A stretch of 58,444 nt of DNA. It comes from Oscillospiraceae bacterium (lineage in GTDB: Bacteria; Bacillota; Clostridia; Oscillospirales; CAG-272). Positions 10,627 through 44,942 of this stretch are shown here, one piece after another (positions within the stretch are counted from its first letter, which is position 1; every line of letters begins with the position of its first letter). Under the pieces are notes generated by a model. The model had not been told where the DNA came from. It saw nothing but the letters and a program-made list of their open reading frames with translations, and made no database searches. The position numbers and the translations under genes were made by a program. The stretch spans positions 1 to 58,444 of the forward strand of contig SVTW01000008.1 in NCBI GenBank assembly GCA_015063585.1. The letters are read 5' to 3'.

Positions 10627-13600
10627 TCAGTCCATCCAATCGGTGAGACTGCGGCGTCTCTTACGCAGGAAAAATTCCACGATCAGGAATCCGCCGCCTG
10701 TCAGAACCGCTGTTCCGGCAATCGACATACCAACCGCAAAGCCAACCGTTTTTACAAGCGGGGTTTCGGTTGTTTCCACCTTGGCATCGATTCGAATATC
10801 GCCGCTCGGCATTCGGTAATCCTGCTTGATCTCGGTGCCGCCAACCTCCCAGCCGAGCACACGGTAGTTCTCGGTGGAGGGATATTCAAGGGTCAACGCA
10901 TTGCCAAAGGCTACCGCCTCGGTTTTATACAGCACCCCATTGATATAATAGCGCGCCTGATAGGTGTTGACCTCCAGATTTGCCTGCAACGTCAGATCCT
11001 GAGCGGGCATGGTGGCGGGCAGATCCGCCCAACCGCGGAGGGTGTAGCCCTCTTTGCTGTATGCCGGCGGGTCGATCTTCTCTCCGTAGCTGTAGGTAGC
11101 GGAGCCAACCTGCTCGCCGTCCACGTAATAGAACACGCGGTACTGATTGCGGGTGAAGGATGCATCAAGACGCACGTCGCGCTCCGGCATTCTGCGCGCC
11201 ACGTCGCCCCAACCGCTGAAGGTGTAACCTTCGCGTGTGGGATCGGCACGCTTTTCGATCAGCGCGTCATATTCGTAAAGGTCCGAATAGAGCAGCTGTC
11301 CGTCCACGTAGTAGTCAAGCCGATAGGTCTTGATCACCGTGGAGCCGTACACGTCGAGATTCCCCGCAGGCATCTTTTCGGGAAGTGCGACCCAACCGAG
11401 GAAGCTTCTGCCCGCGGCAGGCTGATAGGCGTGTGCCGTGATCGTGTCTCCATACTGACACGTGAGCGTCTTTACAAGCTCGCCATCCACGAAATAGCGA
11501 AGCGTGTAGTCGATCTTGCTTGTGGTGGCGTGCAGATCCACATCACGCGCGGGCATGGTTTCGGGAACGGTGCCCCATGCACTTACCGAATATCCGGTTG
11601 CGGGCTGATAGAGGAATGCCTCGATCGGGCTGCCAAAGGTAAGCTTCTGCTCATAAACCAGCGTTTGATCCACGTAGTACCGCAACGCATAAATCCGAAC
11701 CGACGTACTGCCGTAAACCTCCACGTTATGCGCGGGCATGGTCGTGGGCAGGTTCTTCCAACCGCTGAAGTCATAGCCCTCGCTCGGGGTAAAGACATGC
11801 GCTGTGACCGTACTGCCAAACGGCAACGACACGGTATGCACCGTCTTGGAATCCACGTAATAGGTCAGGCTATAGGAGTTTGCGGTAAAGCTTCCCGAAA
11901 CGCGAATGTTTTGCGCGGGCATCTTCCAATTCAGGATCGTCAAAGCGCCGCCGTTTTCGTCGCTCACCGAATTCCAACCGCCAAAGGTGTAGCCTTCCTT
12001 TGTGGGAAGGAGCGAGTGATCAATGGTAGCACCCTTCGGATAGGTCTGTGTGAGAAGTAGCTCTCCGTCCACGTAAAACGCGACCTCGTAAAGGTCCTGC
12101 GTCTCGTCGCCATAGACCGTGAGATTATACGCGGGCATGGTTGCGGGAATCGACTTCCAACCGTTAAACGTGTAACCCTCCTTGCTGTAAGCCAGGGGCA
12201 CGATGGGTTCGCCGAACGCATAGGTTGCCGATCCAACCGGCTCTCCGTTCACGATATACGTGAGCGTATATTGCAGGCGTGTTTCACGACCCGTGATGGT
12301 CATGTTTTTGGCGGGCATTTTCAGGTTGGTCTCCTTGGTGACCGCCGCGCCGCTCTCGTCCGTCCAGCCGCCAAAGCCAATGCCGAGGGCGGGGATAAAA
12401 TCGTAGTACGGGATCGCCGTGTCGTACTGCACGGGCGTTTGATATACCACGCGCATAACACCGTTGGGATCGGTTACCTGATAGGTTAGCACATACATGC
12501 TCTTTTGCATGGTTGCGTAAATCGCAACGTCATACGCGGGCATCGTGCGGAAGGAATGGCTCCACGCGCTGATCTGATACCCCTCTGCCACCGGATAGCT
12601 GTATGCCTCGATCGCAGCCCCGTAGGTATAGGTTTGCGTCTTTACGGGCGCGTCGTTGACGTAATAGGTGACCGTGTAGGTGTTCAACGTGAAGTCGCCC
12701 TCTACGATCAGATTCTCGGCAGGCATTGTGCCTCCCGCAAAGTCGGTAACACTGCCATCGGCATTTTCGATCGTCCAGCCGCTGAAGCTGTGTCCGATCT
12801 TGACCTCGTTTTTCCGCACCGAGATCGGGGTGCCGTATTCAACCGCGTCGCTGTATGCCAGCACGCCGTCTACATAGTAATGCACGAAATAGGTGTTGAG
12901 GTGATAGAATCCGTTAACCTCCACGTCTTGCGCGGGCATCACGGTCTTTTCCCCGTACCAACCGCTGAAGGTGTAGCCCTCACGCTCCATCGAGCCGACA
13001 GCCGCGAGGTCGATCGTCTCGCCCACGCGGTATTCGGCGGTGTAGTAGACCTCGCCGTCCACGTAATAGGTGAGCGTGTAGGTGGTGCCGTAGGAAACGT
13101 CCTCGTGCTTTTTCATTGAGGAATACACCACGTTATTGATGTGATTGTGCTCTGCCTCATCGGCTTGGATCGAGAAGGTTACGTATTCATCGGTAAAGTA
13201 GACCTTATTCAACTCCACCGTGTAGTAAACGTAGCTCTTTGCGTCGAGCCCCTTCTCATTTTTCACGGTGTAGAGCAGCTTGCGGCCCGAAAGGGGCTGC
13301 TCCACGTCCACAATTCCGTTTTCCACGTAGAGCGTGTACCCTGCCGAGGGGAGCTCACCAAGGTTTTGCACCAGAATCAAAAGATACTGCACGCCCGCAA
13401 TCTCCACGTGCTTTGCGCTTACACAGAGATCGGGATAAACAATGGCGTAATTGCAAGCATTGTTTGCCTTTTCCTCAGAAGATTCCTCGTATGCGGCATC
13501 GGTCTCCTCAACCTCCACGATGTACGACTCGATAAAGCAGTCGAGCGTCAGCTTGACCGTCAGCGTTTCGGTGCTGCCGGGCAGGATCATCTGATCTGTC

Positions 13601-16600
13601 AGCGACACGCGACGGATCTCCGCCTTGGTTGCGGGATCCCGCAGGATCACGTCAAGAGCGGTCAGGGGCTTGAGCGAGCGGTTGGTAACGGTGAGCGAAA
13701 GATCAAACGCTTCGTTTGCGGTGACCTTATCGTTTTCACAGCGAACGCCGTCCAGGATCAGATCATCGGGCAGCTTCACCTCGCGTTCCTGCACGCCATA
13801 GGTGCGCAATTCACCGTTTGCAGTGGAAAGCGTGTACAGCACGCGGAGCTCGTCACCGTAGGCATAGGTGCTGAAAAATTCCACAATGCCGTTCTCTCCG
13901 CCCGAGATCAGGGTAAGAGGAGATGCGAACGTACCGTCCACGTAGGGGATCACCGTGAGATCGGCTACCAGCTCTCCGCGTTGGACCAAGAAGCCGATTC
14001 CGAACAGGCTGCCGTCGGGGTTGTAGATGGGGCGGTATTCGTTGCCAAGCCCCTCGCATACCAATGCGGCGCTCCAATTTGCCTCCGCATTCGGTGTGCA
14101 GGTGTAGAGCTGATCATTGCATTCCAGATAGAGAATGCCCTTTTCACAGCGTACAGAGGCAATTGCCTGCCCGACCGCATTTCCGTTTTCGTCATAGGTC
14201 AGCGCGATCGGATTTTCCTCAGCGTCAACCGGTGTGACGCGGACAAGGCTCAATTGGCTGTTGGAGAGATCGACACGGTAGAGCAAGTGGTCCTCTGCCG
14301 AGATCATGTCGCAATCGGCATCCAGGAGCACGAGCAGTTCAACCGCGGATCCGATCTTGCAAACCTCAAAATCCGCGATCAGAGGCTGCTCGCCCAATAC
14401 GCGGAGCGGCTCCCACGCGCCGTTTCGGTAAACCGCGATGCAGATCGCGTTTGCGGTGGTGGGATAGATGGTGTAGTTGCCGTCATCGCTTTGCGTGTTG
14501 TCGGGGGACATGCCGAAGATGTTATTGTCGGCGTTTTCCGACCACGTAACGTACAGCACGCCGTCGATCGACTGAATCTCGGCATCGATCTTATAGGACG
14601 CCGTTTCCGAAAGCTTGACGGCAGGGGTGGTGTAGCCCTGTGCGTAGAGCGTTGTCTGCCATACCTCGGTCAGCCCCACGTACTGCTCGGCATTTGCCGC
14701 CGACATCACGTCGCGCGTGCGTCTGTAAACGATGTGAATTCCGTTTTCGTCAACGCACAGGTCAAAGCCGACCTCGTTGAACAGATCCTTGTTCACGATC
14801 TTGGGACTCGACCAGCTTCCGTCCTCCAGCAGCGTGGAATATACCAGCTTGAGAAAGTTGTACTCGTTGTAGGGAATGCCGTTGTTGACCACGTTCTTAT
14901 TCAGATATACGTTGTCGATATAGAAGCGGTAGGTCACGCCCTTATAGGTCACGATCTGCGATTCGGTTCCAACGTATTCCTCGTAGGTCGTGTCGGACGG
15001 ACGGAAGGTGGTATCCACACGACCGAGCGTGTAGGAAACCGCCTCACTGAAGGAGGCAAAGGTGCGGTTTGCCGAGTCACCCTTGAGCGACCACGTACTC
15101 ACACCCGAAGCGTCCTGCTTGTTCCAGAAGGTACATTCAAACGGAATGGAGAGCAACGGCCCCGATCCGCCGAATATCTCGTTTGCCGAGAAGTGCTTGA
15201 TCACCTTCCAGAATACGAGATCCAGCTTGATATACAAACCAAGATCCATGGAAAATTCGCCCGAAATACCGCTGATCTCCTTGGCAAAGGCGATCACAAT
15301 ATCCAGATCGGCACTGCCGTAAATACCAACCGAGATAAACGAGCAGCCAAGACCTGCGCGGCCCTCGGCGTGAATATTGAATTCCAGCTCAAACTCACGG
15401 CTGCCCCAGAAATCTCCGTTCTCCTCGTAGTTTTCCCAGTTCATGATCATACGGTAGGTTCCCGATGCCTCAAACTCGAATTCAAAGCGCACGGGGATCA
15501 CCCATACGAACACGGTGGTTCCGATCTCAAATTCATAGCTTACGGTTCCAACGATCTCGGAACGCGTGATGACACTGGAGCCATTCAGGCTTTTTTTCTG
15601 AAGTTCCAGAAGTCCGCTGATCTCGACCTTGACAGATGCCTCTTTTTCAAACTCATGCTTTTTCTTCAGCTCCTCGATCCGTTCATGGAAATCGTCCAGC
15701 AGATCCTTGTAGTAATCAACGTTTCCGTCTGCGGGATCCCCAAGCGGCTCAAACAGCTCGCCCATGTTGATACCGATATACATCTTATCACCCTCGTAAA
15801 TGATGGAGGGGGTGATAAAGCGTTGGAAAAGCTGCGCCTCAAACTCCATGCCGCCGATCAGCGGGATCGAGGGATCGATCTCAAATTCAACCTGATTGTT
15901 GATCTGGAAGCCGTTCAGCTCGTCCGGCCCCATTTTATAGTAGAACAGATCAACGTTCAGCTTCTCCTCCACGATGGTAGGCTCTCCCTCGGGTGAGAGA
16001 ACGGTCAACTGAACAAAAAATTCGTAGTTCACACCAACCGTGCGCGGCACGAGCGAGGGATCGATCTCAAAATTGAACACGCCTGCCATAAGCGATTGGG
16101 TGGCACTTCCCAGCACGGTCTCCTTGGTGCCGTCCGCAAAATACTCACGCTGGAGGATCCGCACCGATTGGAACACGTCGAGCGTATCCCAATGCGCGCG
16201 CACCGAAAGCTTGATGACCGCATCCTCATCCAGCCCCGCCGTGTTTACGCTGACGCTGCCCGTGTCGATGTCCTTGCCCTGACAGAGCAGACCCGACGCG
16301 CCGGGAATTGAGCGCAGGGTGATGTAGGAATAATCCGATACGAAATCGGGAGTGAAGCATTCAAGTGCCTCAAAACCATAGAACACACCCTTCGGATCGG
16401 TTACGCGAAGCGAGATCGCATTTCCGCCGAACAACTGCGTGGTGTCGGGCATGGTGAGCACCGCGTAGCCCTCGTCGTTGACGGTCAGCACCTTCCAAAC
16501 GGTTTTGGTCGGGTCGATCGCGCTGATATAGCCGTATTCCACGATCGTGCCGGGGAGGGTGTTTCCGTCGGTGTCGATGACGTAAACAAGATAGGTTTGC

Positions 16601-19600
16601 GGCGTTGGCAATGCCTGCTCGGGAACCTCTTGAATGGCTACGTACTTCTCCACCGTTTCCAGATAAGGCTCCCACATCTCCACGCGCACGTCGAACCATT
16701 CGCCGGGCTCGGGGATACAGTAGACGGTCAGCCCCTCGTCGCCGTTGAGCGCGCCCGTGCTGTTAAATACCTGCTCGCCGATCTTGGGCGCGGTGAGCGA
16801 ACGGAAATAGATCATGCCCAGACGCGTACAGCCGTTGAATGCCTTTGCGCCCACCTCAACGATGCCTTCGGGAAGGATCAAGCGTTGCAGATGCACGTTG
16901 TTTTCAAACGCCTCAATGCCGATCGCAGTGAGCGTGATCGGTGCCGTGAAGGTGATACGCGTAATCCCTTCGGCATAAACCAAAAGCAGGGTTTTATCGG
17001 CATTGTAAAGAATGCCGTTTGTATCCGAGCAATACTGCGTGTTCTCTGCGTCTACCCGAATCGCGGCGAGAACCGAACAACGGTCAAACACCTCGCGCTC
17101 GTAGACCTGCGCTTGATCGGGGGTAAAGAGATCGGGGGGGATCTGCTCCGACCACCAAGTCGTTCCCGCAATCTCAATTCCGATCGCGACAACGCCCTTA
17201 CCGATCGTGACCTCGCGCAGCTTTGCCGAGCTCGCGAATGCGGCTTTTCCGATATACCAAACCTCATGCCCTACCGTGATGTTTTCAAGGAAGGAGCCGT
17301 AGAAAGCGTAGGCTTCGATCTCGCGGATCGGAAGCGTGCTGTCAGCAACACCGCCCTTTGTAAAGCAGGTGATGCGGTAAGACGACGCAGAACGGTTTGC
17401 GGCAGGATATTGCAGAAGCACCGCATATCCTTCGCATTTTTCAAACAGCGCGCCGTTATCGTCGACGATGTATTTGGCGCTATCCGACGCAAACGCCTCG
17501 ATAGCGGTACAGAATTGGAATACAAAACGTCCGAGCGCCGTGCCCGCGCCAAGGGATACGTGACGGAGGAAGCTGTTGTTCGCAAACGCGTATTCCATCA
17601 CCGTGATCTCTGCGGAATTCAGGACCACCTGCGTCAAGCCCGTATTTTCAAAGGCATGCGCGCCGATCTTGGAAATATGAACAAAGTCAAAGGAAACAAG
17701 TCCCGTGCAGTTGGCAAAGGCATAATTTTCAATTGCCGAAACCATTTCAAAATATCCAACGTTTGCCGCGCCGAAGGACGTGACACGGTTGGTTGCCTTT
17801 ACGATCTTGGTCGCGCGCTTGACTCCGAGCGCGTCAACCGAGCAGGCATACAGGATCGTTCCGTCGGTGTCGTAGAATTGGTTCTTTGCGGAAACCGCAA
17901 AATCCGACAGGTTCGCGCAATTGCGCAACGCGCAGTCACCGATTGCCGCGTCGATCCACGCATTTCCCTCGGCATCGGTCACCTCCTGCCCCACAAAGGC
18001 GCCAAGCGTCAGCTTTGTGAGTGAATTGCAGTTGTAGAAGGCATATCTGCCAAGTCCAACCACGGGATAATAGCGCTCGCCGTCCGAGACGTAATCGGGG
18101 ATCACAGCGTGTCCCGATTCCCCCGAATAATAGCCGCTTCCGCTGTAGCGGGAGGTGTTGGCTTGCTCATCATCTCCGCGCGAAAGGTCTCCCGCGATCG
18201 CCACGCCGAGCGTTTTGTCGATCGTATAATAGATTCCCTGTTTATCGTAGGAATAGTCGTCCAATTCAAAGCAGGAATAGATGTGGGAGGCGCCGCTGTA
18301 TTTGACGCTTTCGGAAAGCACCACGCGCTTATCGGTCCAAACAGCGGTTACGCCAACGTTGGAGGAGTCGGTTCCGTCCTGAAACCACGCTTCGCCTTCA
18401 AAGAAATCGTTTTGGAGGGATTTGATATAAATGGACTCCAACGCAGGGAACGCGGCGAACGTTGTCGTCATATACAGAGACATTCTCTCAAACGACATCG
18501 TGCGGATCTGTTCTGCATTGTTTACGGTAAAGAAGATCGCCGCATACATTTCGAACACTTCTTCATCATACCAAACACAGGCAGGAATTTGAATGGCGGT
18601 GGGATCATTGAGGTTGCGCGATCCGTCATATGCCGCCACAACTGCCATATATGCCTCGCCGTCCGCAATGCCGTCATCATTGGCATCGGTATCATAGCTC
18701 AGGAGCAGGTAACCAACGCCGTTTGCGTCATAAACGATCTTATTCAGGTCGGGCTCGGCGTTCGCATCTCCAATGATATCGCCAAGGTCACCCTCAAAAT
18801 CGAGCGTGATACTATCCTTGAAATGCCAGCCCGCAAAATCGGGTTCACTTTCCCATCTGCCGTCGGGGTTGAGTCCATAGCAACTTCCCCACCCCTCCAG
18901 CGTTTCGGGGCGGTAGAGTACGGTGCGGTCAAAGTTGGGCTTGCCCGAACCGTCTACCGAATATTTAAAGACGTTCTCGCCCCAGGATTCGGCAGGACGC
19001 GGGAAGCGAATATCAAAATAATACAGCTCCTCGCAGAAAAACGCGCCGTCGCCAACGTAGCGCAAATTCTTGCCCGTGCGTACCACGCGCAGGTCGGCAT
19101 CGCGGAAGGCGTCCTTCCCGATCGTTTCCAGCGCGTCGTTGAGCTTGAGCGTCTTGATGCCAACGTCATAGAAGGCTTTTTCGCCAATGGTCTTTACCAG
19201 ACCGAGAGAAACAGACGTCAACGACGTACAGTCGGCAAAGGTGTCGTTTTTGATCTCACGCACACCGGCGGGAATGCTGATCGCCGTGAGCATTGAGCAT
19301 TTCTGGAAGGCACCCGCGCCGATTTCGGTCAGGGTCGTGCCGAGGTTGACCGAGATCAACTCCGAGCAGCCCTTGAACGCGTTCGCGCCGATTTCGGTGA
19401 TGCCGTCCGAAAGCGTGACACGGTTGATGCCCGCGCCCTCAAAAGCCCCCTCGCCAATCCCTGTGACGGCATAGCTCTGCCCGTTCACGTTGATCGACGC
19501 GGGAACGACTACCGCAACGGTAGACGCGTGATCCTTATAAAAATCGGTCACGCAGGCAGAGTCTCCCGTGATAGAGTAATACAAAACGTAGGACTTCCCG

Positions 19601-19808: not shown

Positions 19809-19838
19809 GGCATGCCTCGGAGACACCCGAGGCATGCC
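19809..19838. terminator. Hairpin between the two giant genes
   Basis: A perfect 12-bp stem (19809-19820 with 19827-19838, loop AGACAC). The T run is on the plus-strand side only; in the direction of the operon it is preceded by A and not followed by T. It may attenuate, process or protect the minus-strand mRNA rather than fully end it. Confidence 0.5.
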
Positions 19839-34555: not shown

Positions 34556-36526
34556 TTACACAATGCATCCGAATTGCTTGAGCATCCAAAGCAGGGGCAG
34601 CTCCATGCGTTTTGTGGAGCAGGAATGCTTCAGATAGTTGACCTCTGCCCGTCCCGTTGCCTGCTCCTGATGGAACACGGCATCTTTTGCCGAGAACGAG
34701 GAAACGCCGAAATAGCGCACGTTTGCGCCTTCCCCGAAATTGGGGTTGATCTTATGCTTGAGCAGATACGCGTGGATCTCCTCGCTTGCCAGGTCGATAT
34801 GTTCCTCCAGAAGACTGCCCTCAAAGCTGTCTCCGATCAGATCGAATACGTCCGAGCGCAGGCAGTGGCAGTTGGGGTCAAATTCGTCCTCGAGCATGTC
34901 AAACTTGGTCAGAATGACTGCGATCGGGCAGTTGAGCTTGTTCTCGCGGATCGTTTCGTTGATACGGAGCAGCACGCGGTCATTGCCCGCCTCGTTGCTT
35001 CTGCCGTCCACCAGGTAGAAGATGCCCGTGGGCGCATTTGCCATCACGCGGGTCAAACGGTTCCCCGATTGCTCGGCATCCTCGCCCGCGATATCGTAGA
35101 AATACACGTAATCTCTGCGATCGACCTCATAAACAAAGGGGTATTTAAAGATATTCTTCTTCTGCTCCAATGCGTCCTCGCTGACCTTATCGGTCGGCTT
35201 CGGATAGTTGCCCTGTGCGATGTCGATCGAATACTGCGAATAGAACTCGTTGTTCTTATACCAAGAATTCCGTCCGAGATGCCAGCTATCGGTGCCGATC
35301 TCAAGACGCTTGAGCGAATACGGAACGAGCGAGCAGATCCCGCGCGTTGCGTTGGTCATCATTTTGGACGCAAGCTCGGTATTATTTGCCTGCCCCGTGA
35401 TGTCAAACATACGCGAGATAAAGGTGGTCTTGCCCGCGCGCTTCGATCCAACCACCGCAACCTTGAAGTGGTTGTGGCGCAAAAAGTCCTCGGGAAGCAC
35501 ACGTGCAAACGCCGCGGTGTTGGCATTGAAATCGCGTGCCGACTTTTTCTTGCCGCCTGCCGCGTCAATTCCGAAATCGTCACAGCAATAGATCGTATTT
35601 TTTGCGGGCTTGGTACGCGATTTGCTGTCCAAGATCACAAGCGGATTTCCGTCGTTTTGAAGATGCTCGCCGTTGCATGCAATGCCGCCCTTGCGATATC
35701 CGCTCTCAAACGCGGCGCTCGAAGCGAGCTCATTGTGGCAGTAAGGGCAGAACAGTTTTTGCACAGGGCGCACAAAATCACGCGTCTCAACACCAAGCGT
35801 ATCGTTTTCTTGACATTCCAGCAAATAATACTTCTCTGCCTCGCGTTCGGAGGGATCAAAGGCAAGATAAAGCGTCTTTCCTTGGAACCGCTCAAGCGAG
35901 ATCACCTTTTTCCCGCTCGGATCGATGCGGAACTCAAAGGAACGAACCTTTTCGGGGTCGGTGGACTCGCGGTCGCTTCGCAGACAAGGGTAGCGGTCGG
36001 GCAAGCAACAGATCCTGAGCTTGATCGAATCGCGGATATCGCGGCACTCAATGGTAAGCCGCTCGTTTTTGATCCAATAGCGGATCTTCTTTTTGAAGGC
36101 AAAGTTAACGGCAAAATACAAAACGCTTTTTTCCTGCGTTTTGGAGTTGAGCAAAATGATTCTGCCAACGCCCGAATAGTCGTTCTCGTCCTCCAAACCG
36201 AAGGGGAGACGGAAGCCGTGCAAACGCTCATATTCGTCGCGGTTGACCCGTCGGTTTTTGATCTCGATGCGCGCGTTCTCCTCAAACACCTCGGTGCTGA
36301 TGCCGCGTACGTCATAGGAAAGCGAAACAATATCAAAGGGAGCCGTTCTTCTGTCACCCTTTTGCGTGGCATCCCACTGCGGGATCACCATATACAGCAT
36401 GTATTTGACGTTTTCGTCCTTATAGTCGCGCTCCAGATAGAGCCGTGGCAGCCCGTTTTCGTTTTCACACACCCGAAGCGGATCGCTCAAGGGCTTTACC
36501 TGATACTCAAAATAGTATTCGGACAT
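34556..36526 (-). CDS. P-loop GTPase with N-terminal beta domain and zinc-finger-like insert
   Basis: The 656-residue protein has a beta-rich N-terminal region of about 230 residues, a treble-clef-like cysteine motif (CPYCHNE with CNGEH) near 255-285, and a C-terminal GTPase domain. That domain shows P-loop GSKRAGKTTF near 360, the Walker B/G3 element YDIAGED near 478, and G4 ILTKFDM near 540. Its size and layout recall GTPases of bacterial conflict or signalling operons with dedicated associated proteins. No transmembrane segment is seen. It lies 12 bp upstream of the membrane protein at 34543, its likely partner. The GTPase call is firm, the role is not. Confidence 0.8.
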   Translation of the reverse strand: MSEYYFEYQVKPLSDPLRVCENENGLPRLYLERDYKDENVKYMLYMVIPQWDATQKGDRRTAPFDIVSLSYDVRGISTEVFEENARIEIKNRRVNRDEYERLHGFRLPFGLEDENDYSGVGRIILLNSKTQEKSVLYFAVNFAFKKKIRYWIKNERLTIECRDIRDSIKLRICCLPDRYPCLRSDRESTDPEKVRSFEFRIDPSGKKVISLERFQGKTLYLAFDPSEREAEKYYLLECQENDTLGVETRDFVRPVQKLFCPYCHNELASSAAFESGYRKGGIACNGEHLQNDGNPLVILDSKSRTKPAKNTIYCCDDFGIDAAGGKKKSARDFNANTAAFARVLPEDFLRHNHFKVAVVGSKRAGKTTFISRMFDITGQANNTELASKMMTNATRGICSLVPYSLKRLEIGTDSWHLGRNSWYKNNEFYSQYSIDIAQGNYPKPTDKVSEDALEQKKNIFKYPFVYEVDRRDYVYFYDIAGEDAEQSGNRLTRVMANAPTGIFYLVDGRSNEAGNDRVLLRINETIRENKLNCPIAVILTKFDMLEDEFDPNCHCLRSDVFDLIGDSFEGSLLEEHIDLASEEIHAYLLKHKINPNFGEGANVRYFGVSSFSAKDAVFHQEQATGRAEVNYLKHSCSTKRMELPLLWMLKQFGCIV

Positions 36527-36539
36527 GGCTATCTTCTCC

Positions 36540-37121
36540 TTACGAATTCTTAAATTTTTCTATGTATGCGGCGTCGGGGATCCCCACGGCAAGCAGGGTA
36601 TTCCCGAGCGTCATTTCTTGCATGGTTCTCGCTTGTGCGGCGTATGCCTCGTAGCGAGGTCTGAGCGACGCGTCAAAATAATGGATCTTCTGATTGGAGC
36701 TGCCCGCAAGGTTGCCCTGCTGTGTATCCAGCTCCCGCACGTAGGGTCCGTCGATCAAGACCGAAATGCCGCGCAATGCCGCATTGGTTGCCGCATCGTT
36801 TCGCGCGGTCAGCTCGTCGAGCGTGTATCCGCTGTAGACCAGAATATCGCGTACCCCGCGTTCCCGAAAATAGCAAACCAATGCGGCAAGCTCCTCCGCC
36901 TGCTCAAAGGGCTCTCCCCCCGATACCGTTACGCCGTCGATGCGGTCCAAACGGTAATCGGCAAAGTAGGCAGGGATCTCCACCTCGGTTTCGGGATCCG
37001 CCTTTTGCAAGCGGGGGGACACGCACCCCGGACACCCGCGGCTGCACCCGTTGACCCAAACGCAAAGCCGCTTGCCCGGACCGAGCGCGGTCACATAATT
37101 GACGGCACGCTCAATGCGCAT
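36540..37121 (-). CDS. Radical SAM protein of the NrdG / activase type
   Basis: The 193-residue protein has the radical SAM cysteines C26, C30 and C33 (NGCSRGCPGC) and the SAM-binding VSGGEPF motif. Length and the opening RAVNYVTALGPGKRLCVWVNG match the single-cluster activating enzymes related to NrdG. No ribonucleotide reductase or glycyl-radical enzyme lies nearby, so its target is probably a protein of this operon. ATG 37121 is chosen because it overlaps the preceding gene by 11 bases and gives a normal activase N-terminus; a longer frame upstream is only antisense-like arginine-rich sequence. Confidence 0.8.
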   Translation of the reverse strand: MRIERAVNYVTALGPGKRLCVWVNGCSRGCPGCVSPRLQKADPETEVEIPAYFADYRLDRIDGVTVSGGEPFEQAEELAALVCYFRERGVRDILVYSGYTLDELTARNDAATNAALRGISVLIDGPYVRELDTQQGNLAGSSNQKIHYFDASLRPRYEAYAAQARTMQEMTLGNTLLAVGIPDAAYIEKFKNS

Positions 37122-39036
37122 GGCACGCTGCCTTTGCCTGTTGCTGCGCGCGGCGCAACGCGCCCGACGAGCTTCCGATCGCGGCACCGCCCGTTTGGAT
37201 CGCGCGTTTTGCGGGAACACGCGCCGCAACCTTTGCGGCACGCTGATCGGTTGCCGTGGGATCGGCGGTGCGTTCGTCGTAGAGCTTTGCCACCTCGGCA
37301 TTCATGTAGTGGTATCCGTTCTCGCGAATGGCTTCGTCCACGTTTTCGGAATCGTGGTCCACCGCCTCGCTCACGCTGATCTTCGCGCCCGTTGCGTCAC
37401 GGAAGCGCTCCAGAAATTCCTGCGGCTCGTTGGATTGCTCCATCTCGGCGGCAACCGCCTTGACGTATTCCACCGTGGTCTCGCTGTCTCCCTTATTGAC
37501 ACCGATCACACGGCGTTGCACATGTCCGTTGGCGTAGCTGATCACCTGCCACAACACGCCATTGTATCCTTTTTTGCAGAAGAGCGTCTCGCGGACGTAC
37601 TCCTCCTTGTCCCCCACCGTGGAAAAGACCTCATAGCCCATGTCCACCATGACCTTTTTGACCGCCATATCGGTACTGATCAGTTGGGATTTTTCATATT
37701 CGCGCTTTTGATAGCGCACCATTGCCGTCATCTCCTGCTTGAGGGCGGCATATTCACCCGCATGGTAGCGCGGGATCTCGTTCGGCATCACACCGTAGCT
37801 CTTGAGCTCCTCAACCAACGCGCGGTATTCCTCAAACTCGTGGCGGTGCATCTCGTCGGCATCCTTATAGTCGGCACACTCGGTCAAAAGTGCCTCCACC
37901 TCGTGCAGGACTTTTTCGCCCGCACAGTTTTGGTGCAGGATCTCCTCACACCGCTCGCAAACCTGCTCCATACGGATCCGCGAGCACGTGGTAAACTCCT
38001 GCTCGGACAGCGCACGGAAACTGCGCAGAGCCTCCTCGGCACGCTCCACGATCGTCTCACGAAAATCGTTTGCCGTATAGCTTCCCGAAACGGCAAGCTC
38101 CCCGATCTTGCGGCATGCCTCCATCGTTCCGTGCAGCTCGGACAGCGCGTCCGCCTGCTCGGCGATCCGACTTCGTTCCATGATCTGCGCCGCGCGCTCG
38201 GCACGGTCCTGCAAACGGTCGCAAAGCGCGCGCACGTCCTCGCCCGAGGAAACGCGGCAACCGCTCAGCTCGGCGATCGCATCGGTTGCGATCATCTCCA
38301 CCTCGCCGCCGCAGGCACGCAGACGCTCAAACTGCGCGCGTACCGCACCAAGCTCCGCAAGACGCTCGCTCACCGCCGATATGTCCGACAAAAACTGCTG
38401 ATTCTCATATTCCGAGGAGGTGGGACGGCTTGCCGCCAAGGTGATCTTGCGGCATTTGCCTTGCAGGGAACGGTATTCCTGCGCGGACAAACCGTCGGTC
38501 ACGCCCTTTTCAAGCCGATCCAGCTCGGAAAGCTTTTCGCGGCACGTTGCAACATCCTGTTGCCAATAGCCCTTTTGCTCGCGCGCCAAAGCCTCGCTGC
38601 GCTGTGTGAAGGCGGAAAAGTCCAAATCGCCCGCCGTTTTTTTCAGCGCGGTAACGGCGCGATCGCGCTCCGCCTTGCTCGCGTCCACAGAACGGATCCC
38701 GCTCTCTCTGCGTGCCAAAGCACTCTGCAGCTCGCGTCTCTTTTCTGCAATCGCACCCCTTGCCGCATCGCGCGCGGCAATGCGCTCCGCCTCAAGCATT
38801 TGCTTTCTCTGCTCCTCCGCCGCCTCGCGCAAGGCGCGCTGACGCGCCTCATAGGCACGGATCCCCTCGTTTACGATCTGCGTCTCGCCGGCATTGATGT
38901 AGCCGTAACGGTCGGCAAGCGAGAATACGACCTCGCCGTCGATGTATCCGTAAATCGTGTTGCCGCGCTTGACCACGCGCACGTTTCGGTTCAGCTGGTT
39001 GGCAACCTGCTCAACACCTTTATCAATTGAACTCAT
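37111..39036 (-). CDS. Coiled-coil protein of unknown function
   Basis: The 641-residue protein is unfamiliar. After a small beta domain (VVKRGNTIYGYIDGEVVFSL), residues 60-430 are highly charged and Ala/Glu/Arg-rich with heptads, a long coiled coil. The C-terminal part (about 455-600) is a mixed domain with GYEVFSTVGDKEEYVRET and GYNGVLWQVISY, followed by a basic Ala/Arg tail. There is no signal peptide or membrane helix. The coiled coil suggests a scaffold or filament-forming part of a complex with the neighbouring ATPase and GTPase, which is inference. Its last codons overlap the radical SAM start. Confidence 0.6.
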   Translation of the reverse strand: MSSIDKGVEQVANQLNRNVRVVKRGNTIYGYIDGEVVFSLADRYGYINAGETQIVNEGIRAYEARQRALREAAEEQRKQMLEAERIAARDAARGAIAEKRRELQSALARRESGIRSVDASKAERDRAVTALKKTAGDLDFSAFTQRSEALAREQKGYWQQDVATCREKLSELDRLEKGVTDGLSAQEYRSLQGKCRKITLAASRPTSSEYENQQFLSDISAVSERLAELGAVRAQFERLRACGGEVEMIATDAIAELSGCRVSSGEDVRALCDRLQDRAERAAQIMERSRIAEQADALSELHGTMEACRKIGELAVSGSYTANDFRETIVERAEEALRSFRALSEQEFTTCSRIRMEQVCERCEEILHQNCAGEKVLHEVEALLTECADYKDADEMHRHEFEEYRALVEELKSYGVMPNEIPRYHAGEYAALKQEMTAMVRYQKREYEKSQLISTDMAVKKVMVDMGYEVFSTVGDKEEYVRETLFCKKGYNGVLWQVISYANGHVQRRVIGVNKGDSETTVEYVKAVAAEMEQSNEPQEFLERFRDATGAKISVSEAVDHDSENVDEAIRENGYHYMNAEVAKLYDERTADPTATDQRAAKVAARVPAKRAIQTGGAAIGSSSGALRRAQQQAKAACHAH

Positions 39037-39077: not shown

Positions 39078-41138
39078 TCAAAGCCTTGCGTTTGAAGCAC
39101 TTTCCACGATCAGCCGCTCAATGTTTGCCATCGCCTCACGCTCGTCTCTCTGCGAGATCCTTGCCCTGAAATATGCCTGCAAAACGGGATCCTCCCCGCG
39201 CAGGTAGGCTGTCAGTCTGCGAACGTCGTCCCGCGCGTCGTCGCCGATCAGATCGGTCAGATAATCCGAAACCGTTACCTTTCCGCCGTTGATATACACG
39301 GTGTGCACGATATTTTCCAAGCGGAAATACATTTCCAGACTGATCCTGTCGTGCTCGATAAAATTCTGTTTGAGCGCCTGCAATTTTTCGGTCTCGCAAA
39401 GCATCTCATAATATTCAAAAACCCCGCGTGCGAAAAGACTCTTGAGCAGGTAAAATCCGCGGCTGTCCGCCGCATCGGCGGCGTTTTCCTCCGACAGATG
39501 CGCCCCCGCGGTTGCGATGATGTCCATAACCTCGGTATAGAAGCTCCGCGCGGTGAAGCGATAGGCACCGATGAAGAGCTGCTCGGGACGGAACACGCGG
39601 ATATACTCTTTGAGCAACGTGATGTACTTGTTATATGCCGTGGCGCATTGGGAGGTCTCGTAGTGCGTCAGCCCGACCGAATCGTAGACCGAATCGTCCT
39701 CCATGCCGAGCCGTTGGCTGATCGCCAACGGCTCGGTGCGCAAGCGCACATGATAGGTTGCGGTGATCTCAAAGCGCTCCAGGAAAGCTATGCGCTCCTC
39801 AAGCCGCTCCAGGGTGTCGGGCTTTGGCATGCTACCCACGAAGTCCGAGATCCGCCCGAGGTTAATCATCTCCAGTTTGCCGTCGGGGCATTGCCGCACA
39901 CAGCAAACGCTCTTTTTTTGCTCTGCCACAAGGCGCGGGATCGTGTTCATAAACCACTCGCGGTTGTCCGCCCCATCTTCGCCCGCGCGCAAAAACGTGA
40001 TCAGCTCATCCATGCAGCTATCAAACTTCGACAGAAACGCGGTGGGATCGGGCGCATAGGCAAGGCGATCGTAAAAATCCTTCAGATCCGTAAAATGCGG
40101 CACCACCTTGCGGTGGATCGAATCGCCCTCGTGCCAATAAAAGCCGTTGATCTGATTGCGGTAGATCACACGGTAAAAGAGACGGAAAAATTTATGGTTG
40201 ACGTCAAGCGTGGGATCCTCGCAGATCGCGCGGATCTGTTCCTCGGAACTGCGAAATCCTCTGAGCGCGAGCAAGCCGAGAAAATCCTCACGGAGTGTTT
40301 TCTCGTCCTCGCCAAAGACGCGCGAGACGTACCAGTGGCTGAAAATGTGACGCAACGCCGCCTGCGCGTTGCCTGCCGAACGTCCGTCCCGCACACCTTC
40401 GTAAAATACAAGCGCGCCGTCCTCAAAACAGGGCTCGTCGGGATTTCGCCGCTTTACCCTCGCAAAGAGGCTGTCGGCATCGGCAAGCACCTCATTGTAT
40501 TTGTCCAAAGTCTTATTCCGACGCTCAAAAGACGGCGGTACGGGATCCGCAACAGCGGGTGCGGCAGGCTCGGGATCCCCGAACACGTCTCCCATTTCGA
40601 TCACGTCGGGAGCCGCCGTTTCCGCCTCTGCCGCAAAAAGCTCCTCGCGGTAGCCGAAGCGTGACGAAAATGCCGCGGGCGCTTGCTCTGCCGCGAACGT
40701 TTGCGCCGTGGCAGGCGTTTGCTCTGCCGCAGAGGGGGGCACCGCGGAAGGAACCGCCGTGCGGCTCGCGCCGCCTCTGACGGGTGCCTCTCTCCGTGTA
40801 GCACCTCTAACAGGTGCCTCTCTCCGTGTTCCGCCTCGTGTCGGTGCCGCCGTGCGCGGTGTGGACCGCGTTCCCCCCGCCGCGCTTGCGTTGGCGGTCG
40901 CGTTTGCGGCGGCCGTCGGCTTTGCGGCTGCGGTTGCCTGCGCGCTTGTGGCGTCTGCCGCGTAGGGAATGTCGGGAACGACCGCATCGCTCAGCACCGC
41001 GTTATAGCGAAAGGTATTGTTGAAGCACTTGTTCTTCTGCTTGAGCGGGCAGTGCGCGGGACAGCGCGCCGCCCGTGTGGGAAGCTCCTCGACCTCAACC
41101 TTTTTGTTTTTCGGACATTTGACTTTAATCAGTTTCAT
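39078..41138 (-). CDS. Unknown protein with N-terminal cysteine motif and Ala/Pro/Thr-rich linker
   Basis: The 686-residue protein begins with a small cysteine cluster (KCPKNKK, CPAHCPLKQKNKC) that could bind zinc or an iron-sulfur cluster. Residues 60-205 are a low-complexity linker with a near-exact internal repeat (TRREAPVRG twice). The C-terminal 450 residues are helical and rich in aromatic and charged residues, with no motif I recognise. It starts with TGATG overlap to the previous stop, so it is translated together with the 196-residue protein. It appears cytoplasmic. The linker plus Cys head suggests an adaptor, but this is inference. Confidence 0.55.
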   Translation of the reverse strand: MKLIKVKCPKNKKVEVEELPTRAARCPAHCPLKQKNKCFNNTFRYNAVLSDAVVPDIPYAADATSAQATAAAKPTAAANATANASAAGGTRSTPRTAAPTRGGTRREAPVRGATRREAPVRGGASRTAVPSAVPPSAAEQTPATAQTFAAEQAPAAFSSRFGYREELFAAEAETAAPDVIEMGDVFGDPEPAAPAVADPVPPSFERRNKTLDKYNEVLADADSLFARVKRRNPDEPCFEDGALVFYEGVRDGRSAGNAQAALRHIFSHWYVSRVFGEDEKTLREDFLGLLALRGFRSSEEQIRAICEDPTLDVNHKFFRLFYRVIYRNQINGFYWHEGDSIHRKVVPHFTDLKDFYDRLAYAPDPTAFLSKFDSCMDELITFLRAGEDGADNREWFMNTIPRLVAEQKKSVCCVRQCPDGKLEMINLGRISDFVGSMPKPDTLERLEERIAFLERFEITATYHVRLRTEPLAISQRLGMEDDSVYDSVGLTHYETSQCATAYNKYITLLKEYIRVFRPEQLFIGAYRFTARSFYTEVMDIIATAGAHLSEENAADAADSRGFYLLKSLFARGVFEYYEMLCETEKLQALKQNFIEHDRISLEMYFRLENIVHTVYINGGKVTVSDYLTDLIGDDARDDVRRLTAYLRGEDPVLQAYFRARISQRDEREAMANIERLIVESASNARL

Positions 41139-41728
41139 CAGTACAACCTTTTATCATCATATCGCGTGTAGCCTCTCGCCACGTCCTCGATCACACGGTC
41201 GAGCGAGCGGGCATCTACCGACGGCGATACCTGAATTTTAATTTTTGCGTTTTTCTCAAGCAGAGCCGTCATGCCAAGGATCGGCTCACAGTCACGAATG
41301 CTCGGTCTGCCCTTGCCGGAAAGCCATCTGAAAAAGACGTCGGCGGCAAGATCGACTCCGGTCGCAAGGCAGTCGACGTTCCAATCGGGACCCGAAAAGC
41401 GGTTGAGCACAAGCTGCATCATGCGCATCGCGCACGCTGCAACGGTTGCGTATTCCACCGCCTCGCGATAGGTACGGATCGAGGCATCGTAAACATCCTC
41501 TCCGTAAAGAAGCTTCAGCGCGTCGTCTCCCGTGCTTGGGATCGTTGCCGCATCACGCACATACATCTTGTAAACACGCGCGGCATTCTCCCACTCGTCG
41601 CACAGCTCAAGCCGTGCGCCAAACTGTAAAAGCGCTTCGTTTTTTCGCAGGACTTCTTCCACCGCGGCGTTTCGGCTGCCGTTTGCCGCCGTTTCAACCG
41701 CGGTGCTTTTGCTGTTTCTTCTTGCCAT
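41138..41728 (-). CDS. Small helical protein of unknown function
   Basis: The 196-residue protein is mostly alpha-helical with a short Ser/Ala/Asn-rich N-terminus. It contains WENAARVYKMYV and YREAVEYATVAACAMRMM, the sort of sequence seen in TPR-like helical hairpins. The C-terminal KIKIQVSPSVDARSLDRVIE may form a short beta-alpha unit. I recognise no family. Start and stop overlap by one base with both neighbours (TGATG), so it is locked into the operon between the AAA+ ATPase and the Cys-headed protein. Confidence 0.55.
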   Translation of the reverse strand: MARRNSKSTAVETAANGSRNAAVEEVLRKNEALLQFGARLELCDEWENAARVYKMYVRDAATIPSTGDDALKLLYGEDVYDASIRTYREAVEYATVAACAMRMMQLVLNRFSGPDWNVDCLATGVDLAADVFFRWLSGKGRPSIRDCEPILGMTALLEKNAKIKIQVSPSVDARSLDRVIEDVARGYTRYDDKRLY

Positions 41729-43920
41729 CAGCGCACACTCCAGATCAGGTCATGTACCGTTACAAGGCCTTCCAGATCGGGGCGTACCGTGCAGTGCATG
41801 GACTTGCCGCGCAGCTCTGCGGGGGTATGTCCGTCGCGGAAGGTGACGTAGGGCTTGATCGCGTTTGCGAGACTGCTCTCGAATACCACGCCAACCGCCT
41901 TGCCGATACCGCGCGCACCCATGGAGCGCACACGCTCGGTCTGGCAATATTCCACGATCTTTTCGAAAACCGCATCGTCATAGGTAACCGAACGAAGCTT
42001 ATATTTGTCAGCCGCCGCCTCGATCAGTCCGCGCACCTTGCCCTCGCAGATCAGCGAAACCGCATCTCTGCCGATGTAATTGTAGTAAACGAGCGAATCC
42101 TCGATACGGCCGTAAAGTTCAGGGCGTCCGAGCGTGCAGCAGAAATAGTGCTTGACGTTATAGCGGAAATAAGAGCGCACCTGCTCATAGATCTCGTCGG
42201 GATCCATGTCCGCCGCCTCCATCTCGATCACGGCCTCCATGTTGATCTCGCGATCCGCGGGGCGATCGCCGCCCATCTTCTTTTCGATCTCGCGCGCCTC
42301 TCTCTCATTTTCGGGCGTGGGCGAGGTTACACCCGCGTTCGATGTGAACGCAATGATCGCGTCGGTGAAGCTGACCGTCTCGCCCTTACCGTCGGTGAGA
42401 CGACCGTCACTGAGGATCTGCAAGAACTTATCCATAATCGAGCCGTGTGCCTTTTCGATCTCGTCGAACAGCACCAGCGAGAAGGGCTCTCGCTTCATGG
42501 CATTCGTCAGCTTACCGCCCTCCTCATAGCCAACGTATCCGGGAGGCGCTCCGAACAGCTTCTGGTCGGAATGGTCCTGTCCATACTCCGACATATCGAA
42601 TCGAATCATGCGGTCCTCGCTGCCAAAGATTGCCTCGGCAAGCTGCTTACAGATCTCGGTCTTACCCGTACCGGTGGGGCCCGCAAGGAAGAGCACGACA
42701 CGCGGCGCGTTGGGGTTATCCAAGCGTCCGAGACCGATGGCGGCACGCGTCAGGATATTCTGAACGGTCTCCAGCGCGTGATCCTGACCCTTGATCTTTT
42801 TCTTAACCACCTCGGTGATGTTGAGGATCTCACGCACCTTCTCCTCGCGCTCCCACGGATTCTCAAGCACACCCGCCTTAAAGCTCGACACCGAATAGCC
42901 GAGATCGTCGGGCGAGGCAACCGTGTTGCCCTGTTGGAGATAATCCTGATAGTATTGGAGCTTCTTCATGGTGAAGTCGTTGGTATATGCCAGGAACTTG
43001 CGCTTGATCTTCTTCTCGGCAGGGGTTTCGGTCTCGCCCTCGTTGAGCGTTTCTCCCTCGCGGAGCGCGATCGCCTCGCTGTATTTCCGGTTGAATTCCT
43101 CACCAAAGCAGCCTTCCTCCACCATCATGTCAAAGAAAGCCTTCTTGTTATCCTCGTTGGGCTTATCCACCGTGAGCATCTTGACAAAGGGGTTTTGCAT
43201 GTCGTCGGTAAACCACGACGGCAGATCGGTTGCCTTGTTTGCCAGCACGATCAGCTTATGCTCGGGGTTGGAAACGATGTTTTGCGAGATGTTCAAAAGC
43301 TGACGGAACAGGAGCAGTTCTCCGCTCTCCAAACCGTTGGTCGCGCCGTGCGAGAGCAGACGCGAGGTCATTTTGATCACAAAAACGTAGCCCGTGGAGC
43401 GTGAGCCGCCCTCGGTGTTGAGCGTATCCCAGAAGCCGCGGAATGCCGAGAGCAGCTCGCTCGGCGACATTCTTCCGTTTTCGGTGACCGCGTAATGAAT
43501 ACGCGCCATATCGAGCGTTGCGCCGCCCGCGTTATGCCCGATCATCTGCTCCTCAAGCTCTTCCTCGTGAAGGATCTCCCAAAAATGCTGTGCCAGCCGA
43601 TCGCTGTAGGTGCGCTCATACTCAGGCTCCGCGTCGGGATCGTCACTTTCCTTGATCGTTTCGGTAAACTCACCCGCGATGTAAAAGCGCTTGTCGTCCG
43701 ACTCGGTGGGATCATACACGATCACGCACTTTTTATCGGTCTCGCGATTCTCGCTCAGTGTTCGGATCAGGTAGTCGTCCATGCGAACGTACTCCAAGCT
43801 GTCGTCGGGCTGGATCAGGGGCTGAATGTCGTCGATGTTTCCGTCGATCACAAACGTGCTGAACACGTTGATAAACGAATCAAAGTCAACCTGCCATTTC
43901 ATTCTTCTCTTGTCTTCCAT
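41728..43920 (-). CDS. ClpB/ClpA-like AAA+ ATPase with degenerate N-terminal AAA region
   Basis: The 730-residue ATPase has a C-terminal HSP100 D2-type module: Walker A GPTGTGKTE near residue 413, the pore loop PPGYVGYEEGG, Walker B LVLFDEIEKAH near 483, sensor 1 AFTSNAG, and a sensor-2/arginine region ARGIGKAV. The first 330 residues look like a second AAA unit lacking a P-loop: VFVIKMTS and NPEHKLIVLANKATDLP fit the strands and sensor 1 of a dead D1. Hence it resembles a two-tier unfoldase with one active ring. There is no ClpP-binding loop that I can see. ATG 43920 is chosen because GGAGG lies just before it. It should unfold or remodel a protein of this operon. Confidence 0.85.
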   Translation of the reverse strand: MEDKRRMKWQVDFDSFINVFSTFVIDGNIDDIQPLIQPDDSLEYVRMDDYLIRTLSENRETDKKCVIVYDPTESDDKRFYIAGEFTETIKESDDPDAEPEYERTYSDRLAQHFWEILHEEELEEQMIGHNAGGATLDMARIHYAVTENGRMSPSELLSAFRGFWDTLNTEGGSRSTGYVFVIKMTSRLLSHGATNGLESGELLLFRQLLNISQNIVSNPEHKLIVLANKATDLPSWFTDDMQNPFVKMLTVDKPNEDNKKAFFDMMVEEGCFGEEFNRKYSEAIALREGETLNEGETETPAEKKIKRKFLAYTNDFTMKKLQYYQDYLQQGNTVASPDDLGYSVSSFKAGVLENPWEREEKVREILNITEVVKKKIKGQDHALETVQNILTRAAIGLGRLDNPNAPRVVLFLAGPTGTGKTEICKQLAEAIFGSEDRMIRFDMSEYGQDHSDQKLFGAPPGYVGYEEGGKLTNAMKREPFSLVLFDEIEKAHGSIMDKFLQILSDGRLTDGKGETVSFTDAIIAFTSNAGVTSPTPENEREAREIEKKMGGDRPADREINMEAVIEMEAADMDPDEIYEQVRSYFRYNVKHYFCCTLGRPELYGRIEDSLVYYNYIGRDAVSLICEGKVRGLIEAAADKYKLRSVTYDDAVFEKIVEYCQTERVRSMGARGIGKAVGVVFESSLANAIKPYVTFRDGHTPAELRGKSMHCTVRPDLEGLVTVHDLIWSVR

Positions 43921-43925
43921 CTCTG

Positions 43926-44942
43926 TTAGTCCTCCATTCTCTTCATCAAGCAATTTCCAACGCCGTTCTCAACGACGTATCCAACAATTTCATATTCGGT
44001 TCCGCAACGCTCGGACAGGATCTCGCCCAGCATCTTTTGCAGGGCATCGTCGTCCAGATGCCGCCCACTGTAGCGGAAGCGGAACTTACCTTCCACGCGG
44101 CGGTAGCTGCACGAGGAAAGATAGCGGCGAAGCGAGGCTGCATCACGAAAGACCAATCGGTTTTTCTTGAAGTAGTTCTCCTCCCCGTCCACACATTCAA
44201 ACGCCTCATCGGGGGTAAAATAGGTCTCGATGCGCTCGGTCGATACAAGGAACATATCATACCGCACCATCGGCATGTTTGGATCCGCCAAGCCCTTGGT
44301 GATATCCACGTAGGAGCGCACGCCGTCGAGCTCCACTACGTTGACCATATGCGGGATCTCGCCGTACAGCCCCTTGACACAAGCCACCTCGACGCGGTAA
44401 TGATCCAACAGCATTTTGTATGCCATCGCCATGCCCATACAAACCGCCTTTTTCTCAACGATCGCTCCGTATGCGCAAAAAGCGTGTCCGTGCTCCCGCA
44501 CAAATGCCTCAAGCGCCGCGGCGTCGGATTGGTCGACCTGCAAAAAGGCGTTTTGCGCGTCGTCCGCCGAGCGGACCGTTTCGGCAAGGTAATCGTAGAC
44601 GAGTTTTGCAACCTCGTAATCGGTGGTATAGGAGTTTATTTTTTTGTCAAGCTCGGTAAGGATCTCATCAAAGCATTGATTGAAGCGCGCCTCATCGCAG
44701 TCGTAATAGCGAAGTTGCACCGTCACACTGCGAGACGAGCCCGTACCGCGCACGAATTGCAGGGCGCAAAAATAGGCATCGGCGTTCTCGCAGGCATAGG
44801 CGCCGAGGATACGCTCAAGCCCCGATTGATCAATGCCGTACATCACGCAATCGTCGCGATAGTTGCGCACGGCATCGTCCATGAGCAGGTACGCGTCGTA
44901 CAAATTCCCTTCCAAGCGATCGGAGTAGTAATTCTTTAACAT
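43926..44942 (-). CDS. Transglutaminase-like domain protein, first gene of the large operon
   Basis: The 338-residue protein carries the transglutaminase/cysteine-protease-like core: catalytic Cys near 167 (KKAVCMGMAMAYKMLL), His near 198 (IPHMVNVVEL) and Asp near 212 (SYVDIT). The N-terminal 150 residues form a helical/beta region (YYSDRLEGNLYDAYLLMDD) of the kind seen in clostridial proteins of this type. There is no signal peptide, so it is cytoplasmic, unlike the secreted relative at 51162. ATG 44942 follows the -10 element by a short leader; earlier in-frame codons lie upstream of the promoter. Function may be proteolysis, amidation or crosslinking. Confidence 0.75.
   Translation of the reverse strand: MLKNYYSDRLEGNLYDAYLLMDDAVRNYRDDCVMYGIDQSGLERILGAYACENADAYFCALQFVRGTGSSRSVTVQLRYYDCDEARFNQCFDEILTELDKKINSYTTDYEVAKLVYDYLAETVRSADDAQNAFLQVDQSDAAALEAFVREHGHAFCAYGAIVEKKAVCMGMAMAYKMLLDHYRVEVACVKGLYGEIPHMVNVVELDGVRSYVDITKGLADPNMPMVRYDMFLVSTERIETYFTPDEAFECVDGEENYFKKNRLVFRDAASLRRYLSSCSYRRVEGKFRFRYSGRHLDDDALQKMLGEILSERCGTEYEIVGYVVENGVGNCLMKRMED

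Follow-up and report, generated by a model that had tools for sequence, protein, structure and literature searches.

In the Oscillospiraceae bacterium assembly GCA_015063585.1, a run of eleven open reading frames (ORFs) extends on the minus strand from position 44942 to position 10627 of contig SVTW01000008.1; the stretch of 58,444 nucleotides that was analysed is called the window. The gene set is, judged by comparison of genomes, a real, rare and conserved system. Comparison with relatives shows that a predicted DO-GTPase2-like GTPase goes together genetically with a membrane protein, with an anchored protein labelled 'GLUG-like' and with a giant stalk, likewise anchored, whose C-terminus is a Hint domain followed by a tail. 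The presumed operon is interpreted as encoding a transenvelope NTPase switch, a variant form of the DO-GTPase/GAP1 systems described by Kaur et al. (2020); the chances for and against this assignment are about even. Coupling of such a GTPase to a Hint-tipped stalk and a ClpB-like enzyme is undescribed in the literature searched, whose coverage leaves out most subscription journals.

Gene order and its conservation in relatives

Three relatives keep the order transglutaminase-like protein (TGL), ClpB-like AAA+ protein, 196-amino-acid (aa) protein, Cys-headed protein (CysH), 641-aa protein, radical SAM protein, GTPase, membrane protein, GLUG-like protein and giant. In stretch L037 from an uncultured Clostridia bacterium (genome G818), the genes follow as in the window, with identities of 35% for TGL, 62% for the AAA+ protein, 33% for the 196-aa protein, 34% for CysH, 33% for the 641-aa protein, 64% for the radical SAM protein, 37% for the GTPase and 30% for the start of the membrane protein. 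The rest of this membrane protein opens another contig of the same genome, with an identical overlap of 25 residues, and is followed there by genes for the GLUG-like protein, the giant and an LRR-type giant. In genomes G978 and G908, all ten genes that begin with TGL and finish with the giant follow the order of the window; the 196-aa protein of G978 gave a weak match (1.7e-4), obtained with the L037 query only. An initial annotation of this DNA, made from the sequence alone, had proposed that the parts form one set and that giant surface proteins might always come along. Both proposals hold: eight genes recur in order in L037 and ten in G978 and G908, and a giant gene lies downstream in 5/5 relatives found through the GTPase, as it does in the window. 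Homologues scattered without shared order, named there as the contrary outcome, were not seen in the relatives examined.

All eleven ORFs were present in an ORF check of the window. From the first gene to the last, the intergenic gaps are 5, -1, -1, 41, -11, 13, 12, 10, 1 and 95 bases, with starts backed by relatives. The AAA+ start was moved to an ATG at 43920 (730 aa, compared with a 741-aa ORF opening with TTG) and the radical SAM start to 37121 (193 aa, compared with a 253-aa ORF). Once the starts are corrected, the recomputed gaps agree with the eleven-gene layout given initially. The perfect promoter described at the operon head was recovered as a TTGACA-17-TATAAT site upstream of the TGL start at 44942 (44979..45007, minus strand), identified by consensus only. 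It matches in 12/12 positions, which alone is not proof, and it counts as weak evidence because an equal 12/12 promoter-like site lies past the final gene (10481-10454).

Two further relatives, G917 and G846, retain the GTPase, a membrane protein in the same place, the GLUG-like protein and the giant beside another cytoplasmic set. Their upstream genes encode two small proteins, a VPS4-like AAA+ protein, a trypsin-like protease and a RuvB-like AAA+ protein, and the downstream gene encodes a Clp/FtsH/M41 fusion (Pfam labels from the G917 proteins and the G846 fusion). Profiles of the first arrangement alone, run against 1880 ORFs, matched the GTPase (9e-78/4e-21), the GLUG-like protein (5e-34/7.5e-19) and the Hint tail (2e-70/3e-86) of G917/G846. 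These gene contents suggest that the cytoplasmic module can be exchanged, consisting either of a ClpB-like AAA+ protein and a radical SAM protein or of VPS4/RuvB/FtsH-Clp AAA+ proteins and a trypsin-like protease. G029, of the window's genus, encodes on stretch L138 (G029:C114) a VPS4-like AAA+ protein, a trypsin-like protease, a RuvB-like AAA+ protein, a Clp/FtsH-type fusion and a divergent Hsp70-like protein; the GTPase profile found no match on its 16-kb contig.

Five long AAA+ frames of 1003-1234 aa were considered as operon relatives, located on L032 (6286-9963, contig G000:C98 of the window's own genome), L033, L034, L035 and L036. They were rejected and match the Clp-AAA+/AAA+/M41 fusion of G846. 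Near the Clp/FtsH-type fusion of G056, a TIR + FHA protein (L036 13819-15636) and a TrkA_N protein occur on the same stretch, which looks like a defence locus.

The GTPase is rarely found. As a single query sequence (E up to 1e-5), it matched one of 394 genomes of the order and one of 398 genomes of the phylum, the window's own genome both times. Plasmids and viral contigs searched for the GTPase held no relative, and a PHROGs search gave weak matches only. L037 was the sole relative from a scan of 84,980 species by short peptide patterns, which detects close relatives only. A two-GTPase profile matched 5/201 genomes related to G818 (G818, G978, G908, G917 and G846), and the alignment of six members matched 9/141 genomes related to G917 and 5/131 related to G978. 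ClpB/ClpC-type matches of the AAA+ protein in 59 other genomes (34 of the same genus) were set aside as generic; among those listed they cover residues 261-618 at most. Restriction of the GTPase to the window's genome in the order and phylum surveys would suit a chance run of unrelated machines beside unrelated adhesins. The order shared with L037/G818, G978 and G908, and partly again with G917 and G846, refutes such a run, which keeps practically no probability.

The GTPase, the membrane protein and DO-GTPase/GAP1 systems

The GTPase (656 aa; 34556..36526, minus strand) comprises an N-terminal domain, a four-Cys site and a G domain, as indicated by invariant residues and hhalign. C260, C263, C284, C314, G360, G365, K366, T368, D478, G481, K541 and D543 are invariant in 6/6 members. 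The zinc ribbon sought N-terminal to the G domain is represented by the four invariant Cys, for which zinc binding is putative. A Glu in the Walker B region (D-x-x-G-E) occurs in 5/6; G846 deviates or is misaligned. Alone, the window GTPase scored 17.6 bits against Pfam DO-GTPase2, under the cut-off of 27, and the short GTPase of G851 scored 27.2 bits, just above it. In hhalign comparisons, the GTPase matched three GTPases of Hsp70-type systems with 99.0% (E 2.5e-18, six members) and with 98.2% when G917 and G846 were left out. TGL matched two transglutaminase-like proteins of Hsp70-type DO-GTPase systems with 99.3% (E 3.7e-20), bearing out the transglutaminase-like fold assigned initially. 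Thirteen control pairs reached a maximum of 0.3%, and the full-length matrix a maximum of 0.8% for TGL and of 6.4% for the GTPase against non-GTPases. Solved structures yielded weak P-loop matches of the GTPase only, with E 0.029 or worse. By its profile, the GTPase belongs to the DO-GTPases as a divergent member. The initial statement that no described system has this set stands for the exact combination, which is undescribed; as a statement that the set is without kin it fails, since the GTPase and TGL match DO-GTPase/GAP1-N2 systems.

DO-GTPases and GAP1 were defined by Kaur et al. (2020; eLife, PMC7159879). In the parts of that text covered, zinc-ribbon GTPases have a GAP1 gene directly downstream, N2-type GAP1 carries C-terminal transmembrane segments, and the themes are tubulin-like proteins, Hsp70/GrpE chaperones or kinases. 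The authors propose conflict roles near the membrane; the mentions of radical SAM and transglutaminase found in those parts belong to other systems. The covered part of a 2024 study on phage-shock proteins predicts a DO-GTPase in membrane stress (PMC11237479). Functions are predicted from sequence in what was covered of both sources (PMC7159879, PMC11237479).

The six-member GTPase search also found short GTPases in G851, G861, G862 and G865 and in a second place in G818. Weak matches appeared in G984 and G1057, and the G1057 stretch held no operon family. Three short-form loci were read (G851, G818, G865) and contain Hsp70 genes, a protein of ~1030 aa, the GTPase and a GAP1 gene. Pfam identified in G851 a GrpE-like protein (below cut-off), HSP70, HSP70 with vWA, a zinc ribbon, DO-GTPase2, GAP1-N2, two further DO-GTPases and Transglut_core, the last in the kin of TGL. 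The G865 locus includes a transglutaminase-like gene, and the G818 contig stops after GAP1. G818 carries both system types, the long-form operon and the Hsp70-type. Stretches L152, L153 and L154 represent Hsp70-type DO-GTPase/GAP1-N2 systems. Of these, L152 and L154 continue with a transglutaminase-like gene, a pairing absent from the covered text of Kaur et al. (2020).

The membrane protein (822 aa; 32075..34543, minus strand) is encoded downstream of the GTPase and has three C-terminal hydrophobic segments by hydropathy. Its Pfam match to GAP1-M (0.019) is below the cut-off. In hhalign, its N-terminal part matched canonical GAP1 with 41% (six members) or 3.4% (four members) and the GAP1 of the short-form systems with 29% and 42%; the matches to GAP1 mostly span GAP1-M. 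Canonical GAP1 gave two chance-like matches to solved structures. No FNIII-repeat protein was matched among the eleven window proteins (Pfam, E up to 1). The membrane protein is named GAP1-like and not GAP1, its presumed kinship being weak.

The giant stalk and the proposed switch

The giant stalk protein (3752 aa; 19860..31118, minus strand) begins with an N-terminal hydrophobic anchor, seen by hydropathy, continues with InlB/Listeria-Bacteroides repeats (Flg_new 1.6e-141, 18 stretches) and ends in a Hint domain and a tail. Stalk lengths in the operons range over 1132-3983 aa. The Hint domain, delimited by comparison (20118..20570, minus strand), has a catalytic-type Cys at residue 236 from the C-terminus, and the conserved tail of ~85 residues (19863..20117, minus strand) is mostly helical in a model. 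Pfam Hint was found in 5/6 C-terminal pieces of the giants, the window's own piece alone being unmatched. The C-terminal domain of the giant is a Hint fold of the intein/Hedgehog type; the Hint and InlB features noted initially are thus both present, the latter as Flg_new repeats. Across 19 sequences, the first Hint Cys is found in 16/16 aligned there (G107, G203 and G112 are gapped) and the block-B His in 18/18 aligned. In the alignment of six giants, inspected by eye, the Hint part does not close with His-Asn, and therefore splicing is not expected. The tail is kept in 6/6 GTPase-linked giants and in 13 further proteins, namely those found with the tail in the query.

The Hint-tail alignment matched 22/295 genomes of the order, comprising the window's genome, 13 in which the match reached the tail and 8 with the Hint part or less. 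Stretches L117-L129 of the 13 other genomes encode surface proteins, most of ~1100-2000 aa, with the same Hint and tail. By their numbering, 12/13 of these genomes come from the order survey in which the GTPase matched the window's genome only. In the stretches fetched from the 13, no operon GTPase, membrane-protein or AAA+ family was matched (E up to 1e-4); seven loci have at least 11 kb of upstream sequence. One GLUG-like match (8e-5, G107) and one LRR-giant match (2e-7, G234) were located near Hint-tail proteins. Several Hint-tail genes adjoin, by eye, genes that we take to be SipW/TasA-like. Stalks of this type occur more widely than the system, and the long GTPase was never seen without a stalk in the window and 5/5 relatives.

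Two other outer proteins accompany the stalk in the window. The 'GLUG-like' protein (314 aa; 31120..32064, minus strand) has one N-terminal hydrophobic segment and a homologue at the same position in 5/5 relatives; its initial label was not confirmed, as Pfam (E up to 1) assigned it to no family. The second giant (3045 aa; 10627..19764, minus strand) combines LRR_5 (BspA-type) repeats (3.7e-67) with InlB repeats and has hydrophobic segments near both ends. Its only relative along the full length is that of G818 (31% over 3178 columns). A full-length LRR-type giant was seen in the window and G818 only, and the protein, listed at first among the surface partners, is not a constant part but accessory.

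A stalk with repeats and a Hint domain before the C-terminal domain has the typical layout of polymorphic toxins, whose Hint domains are described in the covered part of PMC3482391. The stalk would then present a contact-dependent toxin freed by Hint cleavage. In the giants, what follows Hint is short and conserved, in all six as in the 13 further proteins, and not a variable toxin. No Pfam toxin family was found in the C-terminal pieces of the six giants; no search was aimed at immunity genes. The toxin reading was rejected on the conserved tail and is considered very improbable.

The favoured explanation is the transenvelope switch. The N-terminal segment would hold the stalk, with the Hint tip exposed outside. 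The Hint Cys may form a thioester as in Hedgehog, by which the stalk would be cleaved or attached to an acceptor. When contact or envelope damage alters the tip, the GLUG-like and GAP1-like proteins could pass this on to the GTPase. Via CysH, the 641-aa protein and TGL as adaptors, the GTPase would load a target onto the AAA+ unfoldase, and the target would be remodelled. The radical SAM protein probably matures one partner. The likely purpose would be a response to envelope attack or contact; defence or signalling is preferred mainly on kinship, that is, by analogy. A contact sensor, held to be unlikely, was proposed as well: the Hint thioester would link the stalk covalently to a molecule belonging to a neighbour or to the wall, and the GLUG-like and GAP1-like proteins would sense the resulting pull, or that the tail is gone, and switch the DO-GTPase, which would drive the unfoldase.

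The main rival explanation, a tentative one that ranks well behind the switch, is a biogenesis machine. The AAA+ protein, the GTPase and the adaptors would keep, modify and export the stalk, which Hint then cuts or anchors, and the surface protein would be the product and not the sensor. The giant is the downstream neighbour in every operon compared, protein modification could be the task of the radical SAM and transglutaminase-like genes, and stalks of the lengths observed may be hard to export. Against this, Hint-tail proteins of ~1100-2000 aa exist in 13 other genomes, in whose fetched stretches (7/13 with the upstream length given above) no GTPase family was matched. The second cytoplasmic set includes proteases, and none of the three Hsp70-type stretches read showed a Hint-tail gene.

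In favour of the switch count the gene order kept in three relatives, the GTPase, GLUG-like and giant genes kept beside another cytoplasmic set in two more, the hhalign matches of the GTPase and TGL to Hsp70-type systems, the features that Kaur et al. (2020) describe for such systems, and the Hint fold with its conserved Cys and His. The surroundings of the operon in relatives also count in favour. In both relatives scanned upstream, the neighbours are defence-like or mobile, with SIR2_2 and HTH genes in G978 (L072 567-2642) and recombinase, Bro-N/Fic and AAA_21 genes in G908 (L074 2-4241). Several observations weigh against it. Pfam (E up to 1) found no GAP1-N2 in the membrane protein, whose full-length hhalign comparison with GAP1 gave 3.2%, with unrelated pairs reaching 2 to 6%. 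The switch reading is slightly weakened because the GAP1 match of the membrane protein varies by pairing and is within noise at full length. The membrane proteins of G917 and G846 were not matched by the first-arrangement profiles among the 1880 ORFs, and their likeness consists of position and a hydrophobic C-terminus only. Family scans recognised no toxic effector domain in the window genes, AAA+ P-loop cross-matches apart. In the window, the neighbours scanned to one side of the operon are assigned to sugar metabolism (PfkB, KDPG aldolase, dehydrogenase, UxuA), and the opposite side has genes of the lactamase-fold, GH39 and pectate-lyase-like types. The sample with the operon is small, comprising six genomes, and the system is known here from genes alone.

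Cytoplasmic partners and comparison with known systems

TGL (338 aa; 43926..44942, minus strand) matched the NCBIfam transglutaminase-related lipoprotein (E 2.9e-12) with 45.8 bits, compared with a cut-off of 450. Over four members, the catalytic triad is retained for Cys in 2/4, His in 3/4 and Asp in 4/4; the window copy has all three. Because 2/4 members lack the catalytic Cys, the fold of TGL probably serves for binding and is drifting towards that role. The ClpB/ClpC-like AAA+ protein (730 aa; 41728..43920, minus strand) contains a single intact AAA_2 module in its C-terminal half (AAA_2 1.2e-43; ClpB model 1.2e-63 over one module). It is 53-63% identical in three relatives, with both Walker motifs invariant in 4/4. 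The N-terminal ~350 residues have neither a P-loop nor a fold match; their reading by eye as a degenerate first AAA+ module was dropped at an hhalign maximum of 0.5%. With 215.8 bits against the curated ClpB cut-off of 1232.1 bits, the protein has one module where ClpB requires two. It probably remodels substrates instead of degrading them, because no ClpP-loop tripeptide was seen by eye.

The small conserved protein (196 aa; 41138..41728, minus strand) was found by tblastn at the same position in L037 and G908, with 33% identity in each. CysH (686 aa; 39078..41138, minus strand) consists of an N-terminal Cys cluster, a linker and a mostly helical body, according to comparison and a model of low confidence (pLDDT 55). 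C8, C26, P27 and C30 are invariant in 4/4, in agreement with the Cys head noted initially; solved structures gave no match. The 641-aa protein (37111..39036, minus strand), whose initial label 'coiled coil' was not computed, has conserved N- and C-terminal parts in the alignment, shares 33% identity over 669 columns with L037 and has matches in G978 and G908. The radical SAM protein (193 aa; 36540..37121, minus strand) is of the NrdG/PflA activase type, as annotated at first, with a Fer4_12 match (2.7e-29, longer ORF) and CxxxCxxC in 4/4. No glycyl radical enzyme partner was among the Pfam matches of the operon.

A 12-bp inverted repeat lies between the two giant genes (19809..19838) and is not followed by a T run 3' on the minus strand. 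Upstream of the operon, a long region with recurring short segments was seen by eye (45200-45950). Elsewhere in the window, two glycosyl hydrolase family 39 matches (2054-3454 and 5600-6955) flank the pectate-lyase-like gene.

As a variant, the operon would give DO-GTPase/GAP1 systems a constant outer partner, the Hint-tipped stalk. It suggests a swappable cytoplasmic remodelling module, represented by Hsp70/GrpE, ClpB-like or VPS4/RuvB/FtsH proteins, and offers a testable chain from an outside event via the membrane protein and the GTPase to the unfoldase. A Hedgehog-like domain that tips an anchored bacterial stalk and is tied to a GTPase would be of interest for adhesion, protein splicing and bacterial immunity.

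Several known systems share single parts with the operon. Unlike in inteins, BIL domains and Hedgehog, the Hint domain lies near the C-terminus of a giant anchored stalk, where a conserved tail of ~85 residues follows it; unlike in inteins, it lacks by eye the terminal His-Asn. With ClpB/ClpC (Hsp100), the AAA+ protein shares the second AAA+ module with intact Walker motifs. It differs in the missing first P-loop, the matchless N-terminal half and a score far below the ClpB cut-off. The radical SAM protein resembles NrdG/PflA activases in its CxxxCxxC core and its 193 aa, and its profile matches PflA structures (3e-7), whereas its 89.5 bits stay under the NrdG cut-off of 126.1. FtsH ternary systems, as far as the covered text of PMC7159879 describes them, likewise have AAA+ remodelling enzymes, with radical SAM in some, and the FtsH/Clp fusion of the second arrangement recalls them. 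In contrast to these, the window proteins are without a vWA match (Pfam), and the GTPase is the presumed switch.

The Hsp70-type DO-GTPase/GAP1-N2 systems (PMC7159879, parts covered; example L152) come with Hsp70/GrpE, whereas the operon has ClpB-like or other AAA+ sets, a single GTPase and no detected GAP1-N2. It adds the radical SAM, CysH and 641-aa genes and the giant Hint-tipped stalk, and the FNIII protein was not found. Both have in common a DO-GTPase2-like GTPase with a Cys-rich site, a membrane protein gene directly downstream, a transglutaminase-like protein (L152, L154) and a protein-remodelling chaperone.

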